A stretch of 64,000 nucleotides of DNA from Diphasiastrum complanatum (lineage: Eukaryota; Streptophyta; Lycopodiopsida; Lycopodiales; Lycopodiaceae), in the NCBI GenBank assembly GCA_029204225.1, contig CM055093.1, positions 32,127,777 through 32,191,776 of the forward strand, in the 5' to 3' direction. The notes under the pieces are model-generated. The model had not been told where the DNA came from. It was given only the letters and a program-made list of their open reading frames with translations, and did no database searches. Numbering within the stretch: the first letter of the stretch is position 1; each line of letters begins with the position of its first letter. This document shows, one piece after another, positions 2,462-62,418 of the stretch. The position numbers were made by a program, and so were the translations under genes.

Positions 2462-3618
2462 CTGGGAGAGGAGCAGTTCTATGTTAGTTGAAAGCCGAAT
2501 TTTGGGAGAATTCGAGGAATCATATTAATGATTGATAAAGCAAGCAAATCTGACAGTGTATGTTGAGAGAAATGAGTTCTCAGGATGATCAATAATCCAA
2601 CTTCGGAGCTGAGCTATAAAAGCTTCAATATCTTGAGCTTTTTTTTGGGCAACCTAAGCAGGGTGGTGAATCTTTAGAGATTGTAGAGAGTCTCTAAAAG
2701 AAGTTCAATATATCCATCAACTAGGGTTTACCTCTAAAAAATATGGGATATCTCTCTATAGGATATGCTTTTCTGAGTTGTAAAGCTCGACACTTGGGCG
2801 CTTTAGTAAGGCGAACCTGCCTTCAGAAGGCCGTGGCTGAGAGAGAACATTTGAGCCGATTCAGAATCAACCGTAGCTGGAATCTAGCAAGGAGGACCGT
2901 AGCAGGTCACGGGAGGAGGAACGAGCTCGCGCTTGCTGATCCAGGGAGCTACATTAGTGTTTTGAGGTCTCTACCGAACCCAAGGAAGCCGTTTGGCATG
3001 CCAGATTGTTGCTTGTTGTTGGATCAATCATCTCCTACATCGATGGCTGAAGTATCAAGGCATATGGATCTTCGGATCATGATCAATGGCATTGATATAG
3101 TTGAAGTAAGCCATGAAAGGGCTAAATGGAGTTGAATGGTAAAACTAGCCTTCACTTCATTAAAAAATTTTAAAGTGAAAGGGACCCTGAAGGTTAAATT
3201 CATTTGAAGAAAAGTTTTACTTCAAGGTGAAGAAATAGTGCATTTTTTCAAAGGCCCTTATCTTTTAGCTCATTTTTTCGTTTAAGGCCGTCCAAAAGCC
3301 AAAGTCCTCCAAATTAAGGGCAGAAAAGGACTGAACCTTGCAAGTACAACATCTCCCGGATAGAGTGATTTTTGCACTGCAAGGAGAAAGCGCATCAAGG
3401 GGCAAACCACACCATTTCAGGGGCAAGGTAGATGCCGATCCCGCATTTGAGCATTTTTCAAAAATTCCACCGAATTTGGTGCGTTAGGCCAAATTGAGTG
3501 GCGGGAGGGCCTGAAACTTTTTTGGTTAGACTTTAAAGTTGACTTTTAGAAGTTCAAATTGCTCTATAAGCTTGTCATTGGGCTTCATTAAGGCGCTATA
3601 GGAGCAATTATTGATGAA
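2462..3618 (+). other. Untranslated leader of copia element 2
   Basis: This is about 1.15 kb between PBS and gag. A 130-codon frame at 2743-3135 resembles no known domain and lies in the leader, so I do not call it a gene. Nothing else was recognised. Confidence 0.5.
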
Positions 3619-30900: not shown

Positions 30901-33199
30901 TGGTAGCTACGAAGATAAAAATATGGATATTTGCAAAATGAGAATCTTATTTAGTTTTTATTAATTATTAAATTCTTGAAAAAGTAGATATATTTAGAAT
31001 TGTACAAAATATATGAAATTTAAAAATAATAAGTGACTAGTATTTTATAGATTTTATATCAACAAGCTAAAAATTTCAAACCTCCTAAAGTCTCTTACCT
31101 TTAGATACACGAATAGGTTGCCAAGAGAGGCATTAATTAGAAAGACATCACATGTTTCATCTTTTGGAAAGAAATTGAGTATGGAGCTTTTGAGAAACTT
31201 TGCTAGTACTTGTTATGTACACCTTTTTCTAAAGGCTATATCCAGGGAGGATGTGAGAACTACAAAGGTATTTTTGTAGTCTGTGATAGAAAAAGTAAGG
31301 GGAATAGGTATGTGTAAAAGAGTGTTATTGCATATAGAAATTTCATCATTGGTGAGGGTTTTACTCATGAGAGGAGTGAAAAAGTGAGGAAAGATTCTGT
31401 AAAGTCGTCAAGCCCTAAGGTTGTTGATTTTTTTAATGTTAATGAGGTTGAATCATGAGCATATTCAACACCTAGTGTAAGGAGTGCACATAGGCAGAGC
31501 AAAGGAATGTTTTCTTCTAATATCTATGTGCTGGCTTCTATTCTTGAGTATTGTACTCTTGGTAGGTGTTTGGCAAATCTTGGTGTGAGAAGAAGAAATT
31601 TTTTTCATGGATCTTGGTGGTTACCAAGAATGGAAAGAACTACTCAACAGAGGTTTAGAAGGGCTCAAGCTAGCATTCAAGAGGTGGTATGCACGACATT
31701 TTGGTGACCTATCTATTGTGGAGATCTCATCTACTCTCATATTCATGTGGAATGAATATTGTCTCTATTTTTTGCACGTTGGTAATCATGCTATCTCTTC
31801 ATTGTTTGTGAGCTTGAGGGGGAACACATTACCTTATACTTTCATGATATTTTAGGGACAAATACCTGTAAAATCCAGCATGCTACTATGGTGAAGAAAA
31901 GTATGTAAGATCTACCTGAAAAGGTTGAGCATAAATAGTTGCTTTGATCTATCTACGAAGGCTAGTTGTGAGGTTTCTTGGTCCATCCAAACCTTTGTGA
32001 TAATGAAAAATTAGATCAAGCACTTGAACTCGCACTTCGTAGATGACATAACAACTGTAGCTTTCAATGTTGATTTCCAAGGTCCAACTCCATCTTCCTC
32101 AAGCGATGCACATGCAATTGTTATCTTCATTTCCAAATGATTTCCACCAAGCTTTGACTATGAAATTTTGCTTTCAATGGTCGGTGATGTTCCATGAACA
32201 TTTCCAAAATCTGGTACTAAAGATGTGTCACAATATCATCCTTGCCAAACACCAAAAAACTACACTAGGATTTTGCATAGCATGACTAAGCTCATAAACA
32301 CAATGGTTAGGCCTAGTAAACATAAAACAAACGAGGCTTCCAAAATAATTTTCATAAAGAACGTCTTTTTTTTTTTTGTCATGAACCATTTTAGACACGT
32401 GTGGGAGTGCACTTGTGCTCACGTACATACATCTTTCCTCTATAGACAAAAAAATAAGATTCTTTTGAGAACTTTGGAAAATTATCTCCACTGAAACTCA
32501 TAGTAGAAATTTGGATTTTCGGCCTTTGTAAATGGAGCCTATCACTTCCTCGCTTTCTTCCTTTCTTGATTTAAAAAAAAAAAAAGTTGATTGTCTAGCA
32601 AAATGTGCATGTGGACAGTCAATATATTGGCTGCACATGCACCTTATCTAGTAAAGAATTTGAGGCTTAGGTGCCAATCTCCCATTGGTTGTTGTCATGA
32701 GCGTTTTGGTGTAGGGTTCAAATTCTTGAGAAACACATGAAGGTTTTGTATATGAAACTGACTCCAAAATACAAACAAAAGGCAAGCAGGTGGCTTTTCT
32801 GTGTATATAATTAATTGCATATACACTTGGAGATGCATTTGTTTCAACATCAAGATCATCATAACTCAGCTTAAACATTACAAGAGTAAAAACTAAATGT
32901 GATCAATGATTTGCTTTGGCTTGTGAAAACACAAACCATATGTCCCTCATAACTTGAAGAGGACTCCACTTAATCAGATCAGAAATCTGTCACACTCACC
33001 ATTTTCACATGTCAGAGAAACCTAGAAATTGTACATGTATCTGCTAGCGCAACGTGTGTAGAAAGTTCATAACAAAATATTTTTTAATTATCAGCTCTTC
33101 ATTGCACACTTTACCATTAACCATGAATAGGAACCTAACTCAGCATTGTACATCTCCTCAGTAGACTCAAACATCTCCACGCACACACACGCACAGAAC
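27942..33199. other. AT-rich non-coding interval, 3' UTR then intergenic DNA
   Basis: The first few hundred bases should be the 3' UTR of the GeBP-like gene; an ATAAAATAAAGG stretch near 28530 could be a distant polyadenylation signal. Beyond it, 30.4-31.1 kb is very AT-rich. Short frames at 28.3-32.9 kb show no domain, and I see no LTR, PBS or transposase. A minus frame at 29764-30108 merely spans a tandem repeat. Confidence 0.5.
29830..29968. repeat. Two-copy ~80 bp tandem repeat
   Basis: TTCTCAATGTCGATATCAAG starts at 29839 and again at 29921. Each copy is followed by GATGAC or GAAGACC, then GATGATTGACTGAT. Confidence 0.8.
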
Positions 33200-33660
33200 C
33201 TGGGAGGGGTCAAAGGGATTCTTCGGAGCACAATTGACATGGTAGCTTCCATCATCATAGTTAGGCCAAAGTCCGTGAATCTGAAAGTCTGCAGCAGGTT
33301 TTCCAGTGATTGGATAGCAACAGCTTCTCTTTGTGTCGCAGTAAGAACCTGGCCACTGAGCACACACTGATCCATTGCATCAAAATACGCATAGGACATG
33401 CGAAACATATCTTTCAAAATTCTCAACCATAATTCAGCAAACAGTCAAGCATCTCTCTCATGTAACAAGCTAACGATCATTGCATGATGAAGATCCAGTA
33501 ACAGTAGGTAAATTCTACATGCCCAGTTCTGCCAAATAGTGCACACATTATCTCTCAACGAAGAAGAAGAAATCTAAGCTTTTGGCTTCCGCACACAGGA
33601 TAGCATGCCCGATCATGCAAACACAAAGCAATGCGGTTTGCAATGGGGATGTTTGCCCAC
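33200..33660 (-). pseudogene. S-like RNase T2 gene relic, exons 1-2 only
   Basis: Exon 2 (33355-33200, 52 codons) has a CAG acceptor before TGG and a CAG/GTTCTG donor. It encodes WPGSYCDTKRSCCYP, then the first catalytic motif DFQIHGLWPNYDDGSY with its His, then NPFDPSQ. Exon 1 lies upstream at about 33660-33554: a hydrophobic signal-peptide core (ALLCVCMIGHAILCAEA), then KSLDFFFFVE, the family's usual lead-in to WPGSYCD. Its 3' end lacks a GT donor (AG/ATAATG) and seems one base short. The second catalytic motif (HEWxKHGTC) and all later exons are absent down to 32.5 kb. Family enzymes are secreted or vacuolar RNases. Here the gene is broken. Confidence 0.75.
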
Positions 33661-33714
33661 GCCGATAGTTGCCGATGCTGCTCCTACTCTCTCCTCCCAT
33701 GCCTTCCAGATCTC

Positions 33715-33766
33715 TCAACACTTCCATTCAAAATGTCATCTCTCTCTCCATTCAAAATGTCATCTA

Positions 33767-33804
<38 letters not shown>

Positions 33805-33847
33805 TCTCTCTCAACTCACCAGATCTCTCAACACTTCCATTCAAAAT

Positions 33848-33893
<46 letters not shown>
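33715..33893. repeat. CT microsatellites with duplicated flank
   Basis: CT arrays at about 33764-33812 (interrupted) and 33852-33893. The 5' flank AGATCTCTCAACACTTCCAT, continuing TCAAAATGTCATC, occurs before both arrays, and its last part a third time near 33750. Confidence 0.9.
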
Positions 33894-33896
<3 letters not shown>

Positions 33897-33911
33897 TCAC
33901 ATTATTGCTAT

Positions 33912-33932
33912 TTTTTGGTATAGAAACCCTAA
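33912..33932. repeat. Terminal direct repeat, 3' copy (relative to Rep)
   Basis: TTTTTGGTATAGAAACCCTAA. It matches 35931-35952 except for one substitution and one indel, in the same orientation. It lies 19 bp beyond the end of a CT array. Confidence 0.75.
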
Positions 33933-33938
33933 AAAATT

Positions 33939-33972
33939 AACCCTAACTTTAACCCTAACCCTAACCCTAATC
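33939..33972. repeat. Telomere-type CCCTAA tract
   Basis: Four CCCTAA hexamers, three perfectly tandem at 33953-33970 and one separate unit at 33941. The period is 6 (TTAGGG on the minus strand), not the 7-base TTTAGGG common in plants. Confidence 0.9.
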
Positions 33973-34185
33973 CATCTAACCCAAATCTTGCATTTCATAC
34001 AAGCTAAACAAAACATTGTATACAATCTCAACAAAACGTAATTTTGCATCTTCCTTCAAAATAAAAGTACATAGTTTCACATTCATATCTCATGAAAGCT
34101 GTTCACAAAACAACAAAATTCTGCTTAGAGTCTTCCAAAACAAGAGTGCTGACAATCTTCCAAAACAGCATAGTGCTCGCATGGC

Positions 34186-35238
34186 TCACAATGCCTCAGA
34201 TTCGCACTCACTCAAGCTAACATATCCATATTGCACATCATTTTCACCAAGTCCATCATTTCCACCATCATTCTATAGAATAGGCTCAAAGGATTTGAGC
34301 CCACTAGCCTCGTCCTGCATCTTCAAACCATACAAGTTATCAAACCTCGGAGCACAACTTTTAAAATATCGAAAATCTGCATCTTCTGGAAAAAAAGATT
34401 GCCATCACATCATCCATGGTCACAAGGCTTGGTGCCTTCATAGCCTTCCAGACTGCAGCAGCTCTCACCATGTCCATTCCTTTTCCCTGGAATGGTGTCA
34501 CCCATGTGGTTGCTGGATAATACTTGCCTGTCCTTAGCATAGCCAATAAAACCTGAGGAATGGTTGAACTAACTCTACTTTTCATATGATAAACTGAAAA
34601 TATAAATGCTCGCTCAAACAGATTAACAGGGGTTAAAGATACACGACTTTTAATCTCAAAAGCACCATACTTAATGTACTCTTCACGACCTTTATTTATA
34701 TCATTCTGATCTACACCATACATAACGCACTGAAAATGATCCTTTCCAAAATCCTTCAAACAGTATCCAATCATTCCATGCCAAGTATGAATACTCTTTT
34801 GCCTCAGGTACCTACACAACACCAAGTTTCCAGGTGGATCTTCTTTTGTCCAACCCAAATATTGCTTCAACAAGTGATTGACCTTTAGTACAGAAGATGC
34901 AAAGCACTTACAAATCATCTGAAAATGCAGATTCATTAGCATACCTCCTCTCTCAAGCCCACATAAACCAACAATGCATTCATTCCTCAAGAATTTCTCA
35001 ATCACACCTATAAGCTTTGGATCAACATCACAACCAGCAATCCCCATTGTTACACTTAGTTCATGCACTTTTTGGGTTTCTCATACCGCTTCACAAGCTT
35101 GAAGTCAGCACACTTTTTTACCTTCAATTTCTCACTACCTGCAAGAATTCTAAACTCATCATTAGCCTGTCCATTGATTCCACACTCCAGAACTCTCTCA
35201 TTTGCCTGCTTTCGAACCATTGTCAATCTGCCAAACAC
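34186..35238 (-). pseudogene. Rep-like HUH endonuclease (CRESS Rep type), frameshifted
   Basis: The central frame (35068-34361) holds the Rep domain: motif I-like LSVTMG (residues 4-9), metal-binding motif II with E39 (ERGG) and H48-F49-Q50 (MNLHFQ), and motif III with one catalytic Tyr, GYCLKD (Y102, K105). This pattern is shared by CRESS-type Reps. Residues 109-220 form a second conserved region (YGAFEIKSRVSLTPVNLFER, GKYYPATTWVTPF). Upstream, a 60-codon basic frame (35238-35056) joins through a frame change near 35065. Downstream, a 7-base T run near 34393 shifts the frame; the other frame continues to TAG at 34273 and, past it, an acidic tail to TGA 34186. The enzyme would nick and join single strands; this copy is inactive or nearly so. 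Confidence 0.75.
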
Positions 35239-35304
35239 ATCAGAAAGGTGAATCTGCTGTTTTACTTACAACTCAGATTATCTCTGTAACAGCCTATCCA
35301 TCAC

Positions 35305-35372
35305 TCACACACACACATACACACGTCAGCTCACACACGCACACACACACACGTCAGCTCACACACATGCCT
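35305..35372. repeat. CA-rich array with two CACGTCAGCTCACACAC units
   Basis: ACACGTCAGCTCACACAC is present at ~35321 and again at ~35349 within (CA)n, just upstream of the Rep N-terminal frame. Confidence 0.85.
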
Positions 35373-35539
35373 ACTGGCCTCACTCCTCTCTATCCGTTGT
35401 GAAGAAAGCTTTTTGCTTTTACAGTTGTGATCAGAGTGGTCAGAAACATATATACATTTGGCACACACACAAATCAAGAGTATCCTTGGCAACAAATCAA
35501 TGTCTCCCTGGCAGCAAAGGCAGCTCCGTGTTTCCTTGG

Positions 35540-35806
35540 CAGCACCACGTTTCCCTCCACGTAGCTCCAAGCTCTCAACCTTTCCTCCACGCAGCTCCAA
35601 GCTCTAAGGAGATGACAACGATGGCGATCACAATGGCAACGTCTACACCCACGCAGCTCCAATGGCAACGTTTACACCCACGCTTCCTCCAGCAACGTTT
35701 CGCGACCTCCAGAAATTTCCACCACGTCGCATCAACTCATTTCCAGCACGTGGCATCAACTCATTTCCAGAAATTTCCAGCACGTTGCATCAACTCATTT
35801 AATGCA
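35540..35806. repeat. Short repeats in the Rep upstream region
   Basis: CTCCACG(T/C)AGCTCCAAGCTCT occurs twice (35555-35610), (C)ACGCAGCTCCAA recurs near 35651, and (G)CATCAACTCATTTCCAG recurs three times at 35729-35800. This region has no better coding assignment. Confidence 0.6.
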
Positions 35807-35875
35807 ATGTGACTAGTCCTAGGGCTACGTGGCCCAATCAAAACGCATAAAACGTGTTTTCTCTATCACTGTTGA

Positions 35876-35878
<3 letters not shown>

Positions 35879-35922
<44 letters not shown>
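35879..35922. repeat. (CA)n microsatellite
   Basis: Uninterrupted AC dinucleotides ending 9 bp before the 35931 direct repeat. Confidence 0.98.
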
Positions 35923-35923
<1 letters not shown>

Positions 35924-35930
35924 ACTGGTG

Positions 35931-35952
35931 TTTTTGGTATACAAAACCCTAA
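35931..35952. repeat. Terminal direct repeat, 5' copy (relative to Rep)
   Basis: TTTTTGGTATACAAAACCC then TAA. See the copy at 33912. The core GTATAC here is palindromic; in the other copy it is GTATAG. Confidence 0.75.
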
Positions 35953-37109
35953 TTTTACAATACATCAATTTGCATTACATCATCTCATTCTAAAACAAGA
36001 TCTTAGAGCAATTGATTCCAAACCAATAATACATCATATTTTTTACAATTTTGTCCTATACCGTCGGCGTTTGGGAGAAAGGCGAATCTCCTAGTTTATA
36101 AAATTGAGAGGAAAATTGCCCCCTCTCTTTTTGCCATCTTACACTTGACCAAATAGATGGCTTTCTAACAACTGATTTTTTCTAACAAATGCTAACATTG
36201 TGAGAATATTTCAAATATTCTACAAAGCTCTCTCAATGTTTTTTCAAATTAAAAAAATAAAGGATATGTTTCGCAAAGTGAAATAAAACAAATGAATATA
36301 AAATCAATAAACAAAATACAATCTATGACCAATGATTTCTTTTCTGATGAATAACAATAATGATCTTTCTAAATTCTTAGCAAAGATCGAGTTTTACTTG
36401 TAAAATTGAATGAAGAAAATTCGTTTCAGCACAAAAATATATATTAATTCAAAAAAGGGCTATTGATTTGAGGAAAAGAATGAATGTTATCTATTATAAT
36501 TGTGCCTTAGTAGTGCATTATTCAACAAAAAGTTTTTTATAAGTCATAACAATAGTAGTTTGCAATTGATTTTCTATGACCTACGCGCATAATTTGTTTT
36601 AACAATTCATGAATATTAAGAATCAATGCTAGGAATTAAATATTGACTTCTATATCATGTTTGAAGTTATGTTCCTATTGACGCTTTCATTTGGTAGTTT
36701 TTTTCAAGCTTTCATTGGACATTTTAAAATAGGGCAATTGTAGTAATTGAATCGTTGCACGTTTTGACCAATTGAATCATCCATTAGAAATTTGTTTATG
36801 TTTGAACAAAGAATTTAATCAAATTACGACGTTTGATCAAAGAAACTTTTTCTTCTTTAAATTAGGTGGTGTTTCCAAATATCTCTAGTAGGTTTTGTCT
36901 TGTCAAACAATTGACTTCTTTTTGTATACGATTCATAATACTTTTAAGCTTTAGATTAGCTAATAGTTTTTCAATACCATCTTTGCCAACCACTGTTTCT
37001 CTATTCATGAATTTATTAAAATCTCAAGAATAAAAAGAGCAAGGCATAGTTTTGTTCTAAAATTTATCTTGACCATCGTATTTAAACTAATTGGGTTTTT
37101 ATTTTAAAT
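35953..37109. other. AT-rich DNA, no feature recognised
   Basis: Read in both directions it shows no ORF, LTR end or PBS. The homology to the gypsy LTR begins abruptly near 37110 (GGCATCTTGGCTAGTTTTGG). Confidence 0.5.
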
Positions 37110-59104: not shown

Positions 59105-59927
59105 TGCTAAATCCGGATGATCGAGAAGATCAACAAGCAGTTGAGCAACAGGAGCTGCAGACCCCACAACAACCAGTACAAGCTGAACATCGGAAGAGTC
59201 TTGATGAGCCAAGACGCTCTGCCAGAATTCGACAGAAAGCTATCGAGAAAACTGCAGCAAACAGCTGCGATGAAAATCGATATCTAATGACAACAGAACC
59301 CGAAACGTACTCAGAAGCTATTACAACTCAGGAATCAGAAGAATGGGAGAAGGCAATGCGGGAGGAAATCGACTTAATGGTATAAATATGGAGTAGACTA
59401 TCAGGAGATATTTTCTTCTATGGTAAAACAGTCTATTATTTGTCTCCTATTTGCTTTAGCAGTTAAGAATTTCTTAATAGTCCATCACATTGATATCAAG
59501 ACTACATTCCTACATGGTTTTCTTGATGAAAAAATTTACATGAGACAGCCAGAATGCTTCTTTGATCCAAAATTTCTTGATCTATGTTGATGTAGCTGCT
59601 TCAAAGAATGCAAATGAGATCGTGTGGTTGAGACAATTGTTAAATGAGCTAGGAGAGCAATAAGCAGAACCTACTGTCATGTATATGGACAATACCAGCG
59701 CAATCTCCATGACTCAAGATCATGTCTTCCATTCCAAGACAAAGCATATTCAACTCAAGTACCATCATATCAGAGATCTTGTGCAAAAACGGGAAATTCA
59801 GATTGAGTATGTGAAGACCACAGAAATGACAACAGACCTTCTGACGAAGCCCCTTACAAAATAGTTGTTTGAAAAACATAGGAAAAACATGGGATTCGAC
59901 TGAAGGAATCTTCAGTTCAAGAGGGAG
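59104..59927 (+). pseudogene. Copia pol remnant, unit 1
   Basis: It begins LNPDDREDQQAVEQQELQ, then EPRRSARIRQKA and PETYSEAITTQESEEWEKAM, the linker before copia RT. After a break, VHHIDIKTTFLHGFLDEKIY gives the early RT block; then a deletion jumps to NEIVWLRQLLNELGEQ, a stop, and the RNase H tail (MDNTSAISMTQDHVFHSKTK, IQLKYHHIRDLV, TTDLLTKPLTK). A purine tract AAGAGGGAG ends at 59927. Gag, protease, integrase, the RT core with YVDD and the RNase H core are missing. Confidence 0.8.
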
Positions 59928-60303
59928 TGTTGGAAAATGAACTTCACTTTCTTGCATCCTTGGATACTTCCATGCGGGACGAATTAGATCCCGCAAAGGT
60001 GGCCGCAAGTATAGTATGTTCAAATGGAAGCAGACAGCTGCAACTAATCATCGCTTAAGTGTAGCCCCTTTGTTACAAGACCAACTCAAAAGAAAATGTA
60101 TGAAAGAATATATATTTTCTCTGCCAACGAACAGAAGTAGAGAGATAGGAAAAACTGATAGCGCATAATAGAGTAGAACAATTTTTGCAGTTAGATATGC
60201 GGCAAACTGTGATAAAGCAATAGATCATTTTCTATCAGTTTTGTGATGTGTATGCATGAATACAAGTATTATTTATGTGAACATTGTTACTATGATGAAT
60301 GAA
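59928..60303 (+). repeat. Copia family B LTR, unit 1 3' copy, truncated
   Basis: It starts TGTTGG after the purine tract, shares a ~30-bp deletion with the LTR at 61824, and stops at the duplication junction (ATGAATGAA, then the repeated flank). Confidence 0.75.
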
Positions 60304-60994: not shown

Positions 60995-61823
60995 TGCTAA
61001 ATCCGGATGATCGAGAAGATCAACAAGCAGTTGAGCAACAAGAGCTGCAGACCCCACAACAACCAGTACAAGCTGAACATCGGAAGAGGCTTGATGAGCC
61101 AAGACGCTCTGCCAGAATTCGACAGAAAGCTATCGAGAAAACTGCAGCAAACAACTGCGATGAAAATCGATATATGATGACAACAGAACCCGAAACGTAC
61201 TCAGAAGCTATTACAACTCAGGAATCAGAAGAATGGGGGAAGGCAATGCGGGAGGAAATCGACTTAATGGTATTCTCAAAAATATGGACTAGACTATCAG
61301 GAAACATTTTCTTCTATGGTAAAACAGTCTATTATCCGTCTCCTATTTGCTTTAGCAGTTAAGAATTTCTTAATAGTCCATCACATTGATATCAAGACTA
61401 CATTCTTACATGGTTTTCTTGATGAAAAAATTTACATGAGACAGCTAGAATGCTTCTTTGATCCAGAATTTCTTGATCTATGTTGATGTAGCTGCTTCAA
61501 AGAATGCAAATGAGATCGTGTGGTTGAGACAATTGTTAAATGAGCTAGGAGAGCAATAAGCAGAACCTACTGTCATGTATATGGACAATACCAGCGCAAT
61601 CTCCATGACTCAAGATCATGTCTTCCATTCCAAGACAAAGCATATTCAACTCAAGTACCATCATATCAGAGATCTTGTGCAAAAACGGGAAATTCAGATT
61701 GAGTATGTGAAGACCACAGAAATGACAACAGACCTTCTGACGAAGCCCCTTACAAAATAGTTGTTTGAAAAACATAGGAAAAACATGGGATTCGACTGAA
61801 GGAATCTTCAGTTCAAGAGGGAG
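60994..61823 (+). pseudogene. Copia pol remnant, unit 2
   Basis: It has the same deletions and stops as unit 1, with a few base differences. Here the first frame runs slightly longer (to 61362) because six bases near 61272 (ATTCTC) are missing from unit 1. The RNase H tail and polypurine tract are the same. Confidence 0.8.
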
Positions 61824-62418
61824 TGTTGGAAAATGAACTTCACTTTCTTGCATTCTTGGATACTTCCATGCGGGACAAATCAGATCCCGCAAAGGTGGCC
61901 GCAAGTACAGTATGTTCAAATGGAAGCAGACAGCTGCAACTAATCATCGCTTAAGTGCAGCCCCTTTGTTACAAGACCAACTCAAAAGAAAATGTATGAA
62001 AGAATATATATTTTCTCTGCCAACGAACAGAAGCAGAGAGATAGGAAAAACTGATAGCGCATAATAGAGTAGAACAATTTTTGCAGTTAGATATGCGGCA
62101 AACTGTGATAAAGCAATAGATCATTTTCTATCAGTTTTGTGATGTGTATGCATGAATACAAGTATTATTTATGTGAACATTGTTACTCTGATGAATGAAT
62201 CATATTGTCTCCTCAATTAGTACATAGTTATAAGGTTGCAAAAAATCTAAAGACGGAGTATCAGAAACTAACTGGCGTTCACATTTTCTCTCTTTGGGAT
62301 TTTTGCATTTTTTTTTCTAGTAGAGCTGAAACGTGCTTAAGTGTGTAGAATTCATGCAGTTTCGCATTTTTCACTTTTTTCGCCTTTCCAAAAATCGCGA
62401 CAATTGCAGAATAATACA
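61824..62418 (+). repeat. Copia family B LTR, unit 2 3' copy
   Basis: 595 bp from TGTTGG to AATACA. It lacks ~30 bp present in the 5' LTRs and is followed by unrelated DNA (TGCTTCCACATCC). Confidence 0.75.

Follow-up and report, generated by a model that had tools for sequence, protein, structure and literature searches.

A decayed Replitron in Diphasiastrum complanatum and the residence of its relatives at GA microsatellites

A stretch of 64,000 nucleotides from the lycophyte Diphasiastrum complanatum (contig CM055093.1 of assembly GCA_029204225.1; C2:32127777-32191776 in our numbering), here called the window, carries an element with a broken transposase gene that very probably belongs to the Replitrons (Table 1). 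Replitrons, reportedly first described by Craig in 2023, possess a single catalytic tyrosine (Tyr), lack a helicase and transpose by copy and paste. An earlier reading made from the letters alone (the sequence-only reading) had described an open reading frame with ERGG-x4-LHFQ and a single GYCLKD Tyr motif but no helicase, and had proposed a Replitron-like relic. Both motifs were recovered on the minus-strand frame 34361-35080, which is open for 239 codons, longer than any other frame listed on that strand within 33000-37000. The hidden Markov model search that the same reading had suggested for the translated region yielded matches above Pfam's curated cut-offs to the two dedicated Replitron models, PF21859 (Replitron_HUH) over residues 13-135 (E 7.5e-16, 59.1 bits, cut-off 28.5) and PF21860 (Replitron_C) over residues 176-230 (E 1.2e-12, 48.5 bits, cut-off 27). 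The lack of a helicase in this frame was confirmed, as Pfam at E up to 10 matched the two Replitron models only.

Table 1. Features of the element and its immediate surroundings (window positions)
Feature	Position	Strand	Basis
Replitron element, family A, 1,987 bp	33893..35879	-	copy homology stops at flanking microsatellites; terminal motifs common to copies
Broken transposase gene	34186..35220	-	344-aa uninterrupted counterpart in L002, L003
Rep HUH endonuclease domain, motifs NLHFQ and YCLK	34676..35044	-	PF21859
Replitron C-terminal domain	34391..34555	-	PF21860
AATGT at 5' terminus, half of 5-bp short direct repeat	35875..35879	-	terminal motif comparison
AATGT 6 nt inside 3' terminus, other half	33899..33903	-	terminal motif comparison
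(GA)n on coding strand, directly 3' of element	33852..33892	.	sequence
(TG)n on coding strand, directly 5' of element	35880..35920	.	sequence
3' part of older divergent Replitron relic, head-to-tail with element	35921..36049	-	homology for 35957-36041; remainder tentative
End of high-copy repeat cutting off older relic	36050..36200	-	repeat match

Two genomic copies, L002 and L003, retain an uninterrupted frame of 344 amino acids counted from the first methionine, and comparison with them located the breaks in the window gene near 35060-35080 and 34361-34404. The uninterrupted copies also reveal that the upstream frame 35056-35265, which has no Pfam match, belongs to this gene as its N-terminal portion. 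PF21859 scores 56.6 and 56.9 bits in the L002 and L003 proteins and PF21860 scores 40.6 and 47.7 bits, and nothing beyond these two domains, including a helicase, was detected in either protein by Pfam at E up to 10.

The assembly searched comprises 1.74 Gb in 5,176 contigs. A DNA search with 34186-35238, in which 40 of 149 candidates were scored, produced at least 46 match rows. Nine are full length at 94-100% identity, counting the window's own copy and pairs located on duplicate contigs. The PF21859 profile was found at 93 places, all above the cut-off (129 candidates, all scored), and in 0 of 14 control genomes. The 93 places do not equal a number of insertions, because some small contigs duplicate chromosome sites, and any copy number given here is either a minimum or a Pfam count in which duplicate contigs are included. 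This multi-copy state is compatible with copy-and-paste transposition.

Protein and DNA similarity sorted 30 loci, fetched from the PF21859 places, into four families, labelled A to D for this analysis, of which A is the family of the window and C its nearest relative. Over the frames compared, protein identity to L002 is 54-64% for family C, 41-50% for B and 35% for D. Family B (L026-L029, L033, L035, L036, L043, L044 and L054) has several open frames of more than 300 amino acids, and (TC)n lies inside most of its loci; its 5' ends read AATATGTT..., and in L027 and L054 the 3' end continues into an inverted repeat of that end. Family D is a single type present twice, at L055:6094-7089 (C2) and at L053/L056 (C15), within a segment that is 99.7% identical across 5.8 kb. 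Its open Replitron frame of 332 amino acids has arginine in place of the catalytic Tyr (GRCLKD), and no GA, GT, TA, TC or CA run of at least five units occurs in L055. Family D may have been domesticated, or may simply be dead and duplicated.

Alignment of the copies also defined the ends of the element. L002 aligns with the window over 33852-35881 and L003 over 33878-35870 (window position equals L001 position plus 32685). The window element begins with AATGTCAACAG at 35879 and ends with ...AATGTGAGTTG at 33893, in agreement with the other family A copies (5' end AATGTCAACAGTGAT, 3' end AATAATGTGAGTTG), while family C has AATGTACGTTGTGATGG at the 5' end (L030/L031) and GAATGT[GCT]AGTTG at the 3' end. 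These end motifs place AATGT at both ends of families A and C. No terminal inverted repeats were found, with 0 of 7 inverted pairs at the element ends, and four end sequences examined form no subterminal hairpins beyond those of shuffled sequences. A target-site duplication is not discernible inside a dinucleotide repeat. A telomere-like (TTAGGG)n at 33938-33970, about 45 nt inside the 3' end, is kept in several family A copies.

The sequence-only reading had instead bounded a segment of about 2 kb by direct repeats. Two 18-nt repeats do exist, at 33912-33929 and 35931-35948, and are 89% alike, but the alignment of copies rejects them as element ends because homology between copies stops at the microsatellites. 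The left repeat is internal, starting 19 nt from the 3' end, and the right one lies about 50 nt outside the 5' end, adjoining 35957-36041. Full copies were predicted to share these repeats as ends; copies were found, but their ends coincide with microsatellites, which overturns the proposed boundaries and leaves the class assignment unaffected.

The right-hand repeat falls within an older relic at 35921-36049. At 80% identity, window positions 35957-36041 align with a divergent Replitron (C3:78829700-78831400), in its 3' region shortly before the end of that copy. From position 36050 a high-copy repeat takes over; of 427 candidates for it 40 were scored, and these include at least 39 other places where the match reaches to about 36050 or 36066. 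Because of this match and the takeover by the repeat, the locus is read as two Replitrons of different age arranged head-to-tail with a TG tract between them. An end motif suggests that the relic extends down to 35921, a 22-nt similarity that is weak alone: its best score was reached by 1, 5, 1, 2 and 1 of 200 shuffles in five comparisons, and the L009 comparison aligned best over another segment. After L009 comes a derivative of about 300 bp with its own ends, and the two share the GA tract that separates them. This derivative (oriented 2880-3181, minus strand) is non-autonomous and has both family A ends. Similar pieces precede L018 and follow the L088 copy, as judged by eye, so that chains occur at the window, L009, L018 and L088, the last two resting on that visual judgement.

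The first residue of the HUH motif varies among the families. The motif is N-L-H-F-Q in 11 of 13 readable family A rows and D-L-H in L005/L006, while the divergent A relatives L014-L017 have H-L-H (HLHFR in L014, and a stop after HLHF in L017). In families B, C and D the residue after H-L-H is F, L, M or T and the next is Q, the exceptions being R-L-H in L028 and H-L-Y in L035. The metal motif of family A may be either N-L-H or H-F-Q, of which the latter could serve as HUQ. Ratios of nonsynonymous to synonymous substitution (dN/dS) by the Nei-Gojobori method (NG86) are low between subfamilies, at 0.31, 0.30 and 0.22 for L002 against L014, L015 and L017 (dS 0.47-0.53). For L002 against the A copies L006, L007, L009, L013 and L019 they are 0.72, 0.41, 0.35, 0.33 and 0.48; L019 does not cover the motif. 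The youngest copies range from 0.5 to 3.7 or are undefined, a spread that is expected because their differences are few and decaying. These ratios, into which broken copies also enter, suggest that constraint may act on the asparagine (Asn) form too.

Both domains, the CRESS-Rep-like fold described below, the uninterrupted sisters, the low dN/dS, the common ends and repeated genomic copies, and residence at GA (sometimes TG) tracts favor the original view of a Replitron-like, single-Tyr HUH relic. The feature is, with high confidence, a decayed autonomous Replitron, free of a helicase, whose sole recognized protein is a single-Tyr HUH Rep with a Replitron C-terminal domain, and for which a mechanism is proposed below.

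Residence at microsatellites was assessed at each end separately. The exact 3' motif AATGTNAGTTG was located in L001-L054 and the window, giving 14 independent ends after L005/L006, L019/L020, L030/L031, L032/L037 and loci repeating one place were merged as duplicates; L007/L008, L011, L012/L013 and L015-L018 lack the exact motif and were not counted. AGAGAG lies directly 3' of the element in 13 of the 14, and the remaining end (L019/L020) is followed by (TG)n and then (GA)n. The 5' ends are less regular. Eight independent exact ones were found, four of them directly at a long GA tract (L009's derivative, L011, L018 and L030/L031); among the others, L004 has a short GA tract, L002 has GA 5 nt away, L010 has GAG only and the window has TG.

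Empty sites revealed the state of one locus before insertion. When the two flanks of L002 were joined and searched, 41 match rows emerged from 35 candidates, all of them scored; 18 rows span the junction, within a repeat resembling a long terminal repeat (LTR). All 16 fetched paralogues of this site (L072-L087, consisting of 12 spanning rows and four split by a longer tract, not all mutually independent) have the GA tract and lack the Replitron, and because of this the tract is considered to predate the insertion at L002. A sister copy lies some 3 kb downstream of L002, and its tract is short and interrupted. The LTR-like repeat starts at about TGTGAACGAGGGAAGCGCA, and the length of its GA tract varies widely among copies. 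The joined flanks of the window copy matched only its own site and partial or simple-repeat sequences (66 rows; 38 candidates, all scored), and the L040 empty site was uninformative, its 3' flank being itself a high-copy repeat that abuts GA. Separately, a repeat starting with AATTAGAATTAGAATTATTATTATTAACG (with small variants) abuts a GA tract in all 10 fetched copies (L062-L071), which differ in their outer flanks. With 1,091 candidates at first look, of which 40 were scored, this high-copy repeat represents a second kind of element at GA microsatellites.

The L002 junction is not clean, in that TTG or TTA stands between the GA tract and AAGT in 15 of the 16 empty sites, while ATTTG precedes the element in L002 and nothing separates its 3' GA tract from AAGTAACG; the 3' tract may thus be partly carried by the element. 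On a rival reading, the 3' (GA)n would not be target sequence but a variable (AG)n tail of the element, seeded by the donor site or read through from it, and insertion would occur at TG|A or TTG|A, often near GA tracts. The nearly uniform AGAGAG start of the 3' ends, whereas the 5' flanks vary, is consistent with a carried tail, as is the resemblance of ATTTG in the 5' flank of L002 to the CTTG of most empty sites, with the GA tract on the 3' side. However, the (TG)n after L019/L020, the long GA tracts on both sides of L009's derivative, L018 and L030/L031, and the tract at the same place in every fetched empty site argue against it, and we regard the carried tail as doubtful.

It is improbable that the GA flanks are coincidental, the outcome of insertion at any site followed by spontaneous expansion of tracts that are abundant anyway. 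The window does contain several GA tracts, and tract lengths differ between the duplicates L005/L006 and L030/L031. However, on each strand of the window only 0.18-0.21% of positions are the start of a (GA)4, compared with 13 of the 14 ends, and the empty sites already carry the tract. Furthermore, none of seven family B 5' ends lies directly at a microsatellite, and in one GA is found at a distance of 19 nt; the eighth match to the pattern, within L035, was discarded as not being an end.

In the mechanism proposed for the favored reading, the Rep would use the Tyr of YCLK to nick the element at its ends on one strand, forming a 5'-phosphotyrosine link, and a single strand would be displaced or copied and then joined into a GA microsatellite. 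Chains like that of the window would arise as further copies inserted next to ends already present; the window copy was subsequently inactivated by two frameshifts. A more far-reaching reading, possible though less likely than not, is that the Rep of families A and C directs insertion into GA/TC (occasionally TG) microsatellites and so builds head-to-tail chains, and that in family A it does so with Asn replacing the first His of the HUH motif while still under purifying selection, which would make it a naturally altered HUH transposase that targets simple repeats.

The protein fold bears on a viral origin. An AlphaFold2 model of the 344-aa L002 protein has a mean predicted local distance difference test score (pLDDT) of 55.9, with block means of 49-90 across residues 51-190, and fold comparison placed Reps of circovirus, Vientovirus and nanovirus nearest among solved structures. 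A viral-library search returned 142 matches with E values of 0.001 or less, and the named matches listed include Cressdnaviricota Reps; a viral_contigs scan gave no match, and phmmer with the window frame against PDB sequences gave two chains (best E 0.32). These neighbours would suit an endogenised fragment of a CRESS-DNA virus Rep (circovirus, nanovirus, geminivirus). Such a Rep is expected to bring a helicase domain, whereas here Replitron models match both domains, the uninterrupted copies have no helicase match, and repeated, bounded chromosomal copies with conserved ends and a non-autonomous derivative contradict a viral fragment, which we judge highly improbable. A Helitron or Helentron relic, which would share the HUH nuclease, the repeated copies and the absence of terminal inverted repeats, deserves next to no credence, as Helitrons have a different Rep family with two Tyr plus a helicase and ends of the form TC...CTRR, whereas the element has one Tyr motif, no helicase match, other ends and, for the window frame and the 344-aa L002/L003 proteins, no Pfam Helitron match.

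The surroundings accord with the plant nuclear origin that had been assumed. The window contains a gene for a GeBP-like DNA-binding domain (a plant family), RNase T2 exons, amino-acid transporter exons and gypsy/copia-type LTR retroelement pieces, and because of this content, together with a genome of 1.74 Gb, it was taken as land-plant nuclear DNA. An RNase T2 exon piece at 33167-33379 (minus strand) lies about 510 bp past the 3' end of the element, so that the insertion is close to a host gene. Elsewhere, near-identical minus-strand frames of 132 amino acids at 59649-60047 and 61545-61943, 1.9 kb apart, are possibly a duplicated segment or an LTR pair.

Replitrons are recent (2023), and little was found on their choice of target. 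With several families in one genome, uninterrupted sisters, a derivative that is non-autonomous, well-marked ends and empty sites among paralogues, the way ends are recognized and targets chosen can be tested directly; Asn at the first His of an HUH nuclease would also be relevant to how metal is bound and to the use of HUH enzymes as tools. The available Replitron passages of two papers do not mention microsatellite targets (PMC10741241; PMC13231165), the one title found for HUH endonucleases, transposons and microsatellites together concerns a Helitron, and the titles of the wider matches listed include no Replitron microsatellite work. Microsatellite preference is already known for other transposons, and GA targeting by Replitrons is not claimed here as unpublished.

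Helitrons and Helentrons (DINE-1) are rolling-circle elements with a T-rich target, for which no modification of the target site was found (PMC4067079), and a Helitron-like element disrupting (GAAA)n microsatellites is known from a title cited there (Coates, 2010). Miniature inverted-repeat transposable elements (MITEs) of pineapple prefer dinucleotide microsatellites and cluster by adjacent insertion; the preference is alike, yet these MITEs are Mutator-like, have terminal inverted repeats and use (TA)n (PMC8449440). Replitrons are characterized by an HUH endonuclease and a length of 0.9-4 kb, with short direct repeats close to the ends but no terminal inverted repeats (PMC10741241); the values applied here were end direct repeats of 5-11 bp, a target-site duplication of 2-8 bp and 0.9-4 kb. 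The window element agrees in its HUH and C-terminal domains, its lack of terminal inverted repeats and its 1,987 bp, and has AATGT near both ends as a direct repeat of only 5 bp, the longer repeats of the sequence-only reading not being terminal. Insertion at GA microsatellites and the family A Asn in place of the first HUH His may set these copies apart from the Replitrons described.
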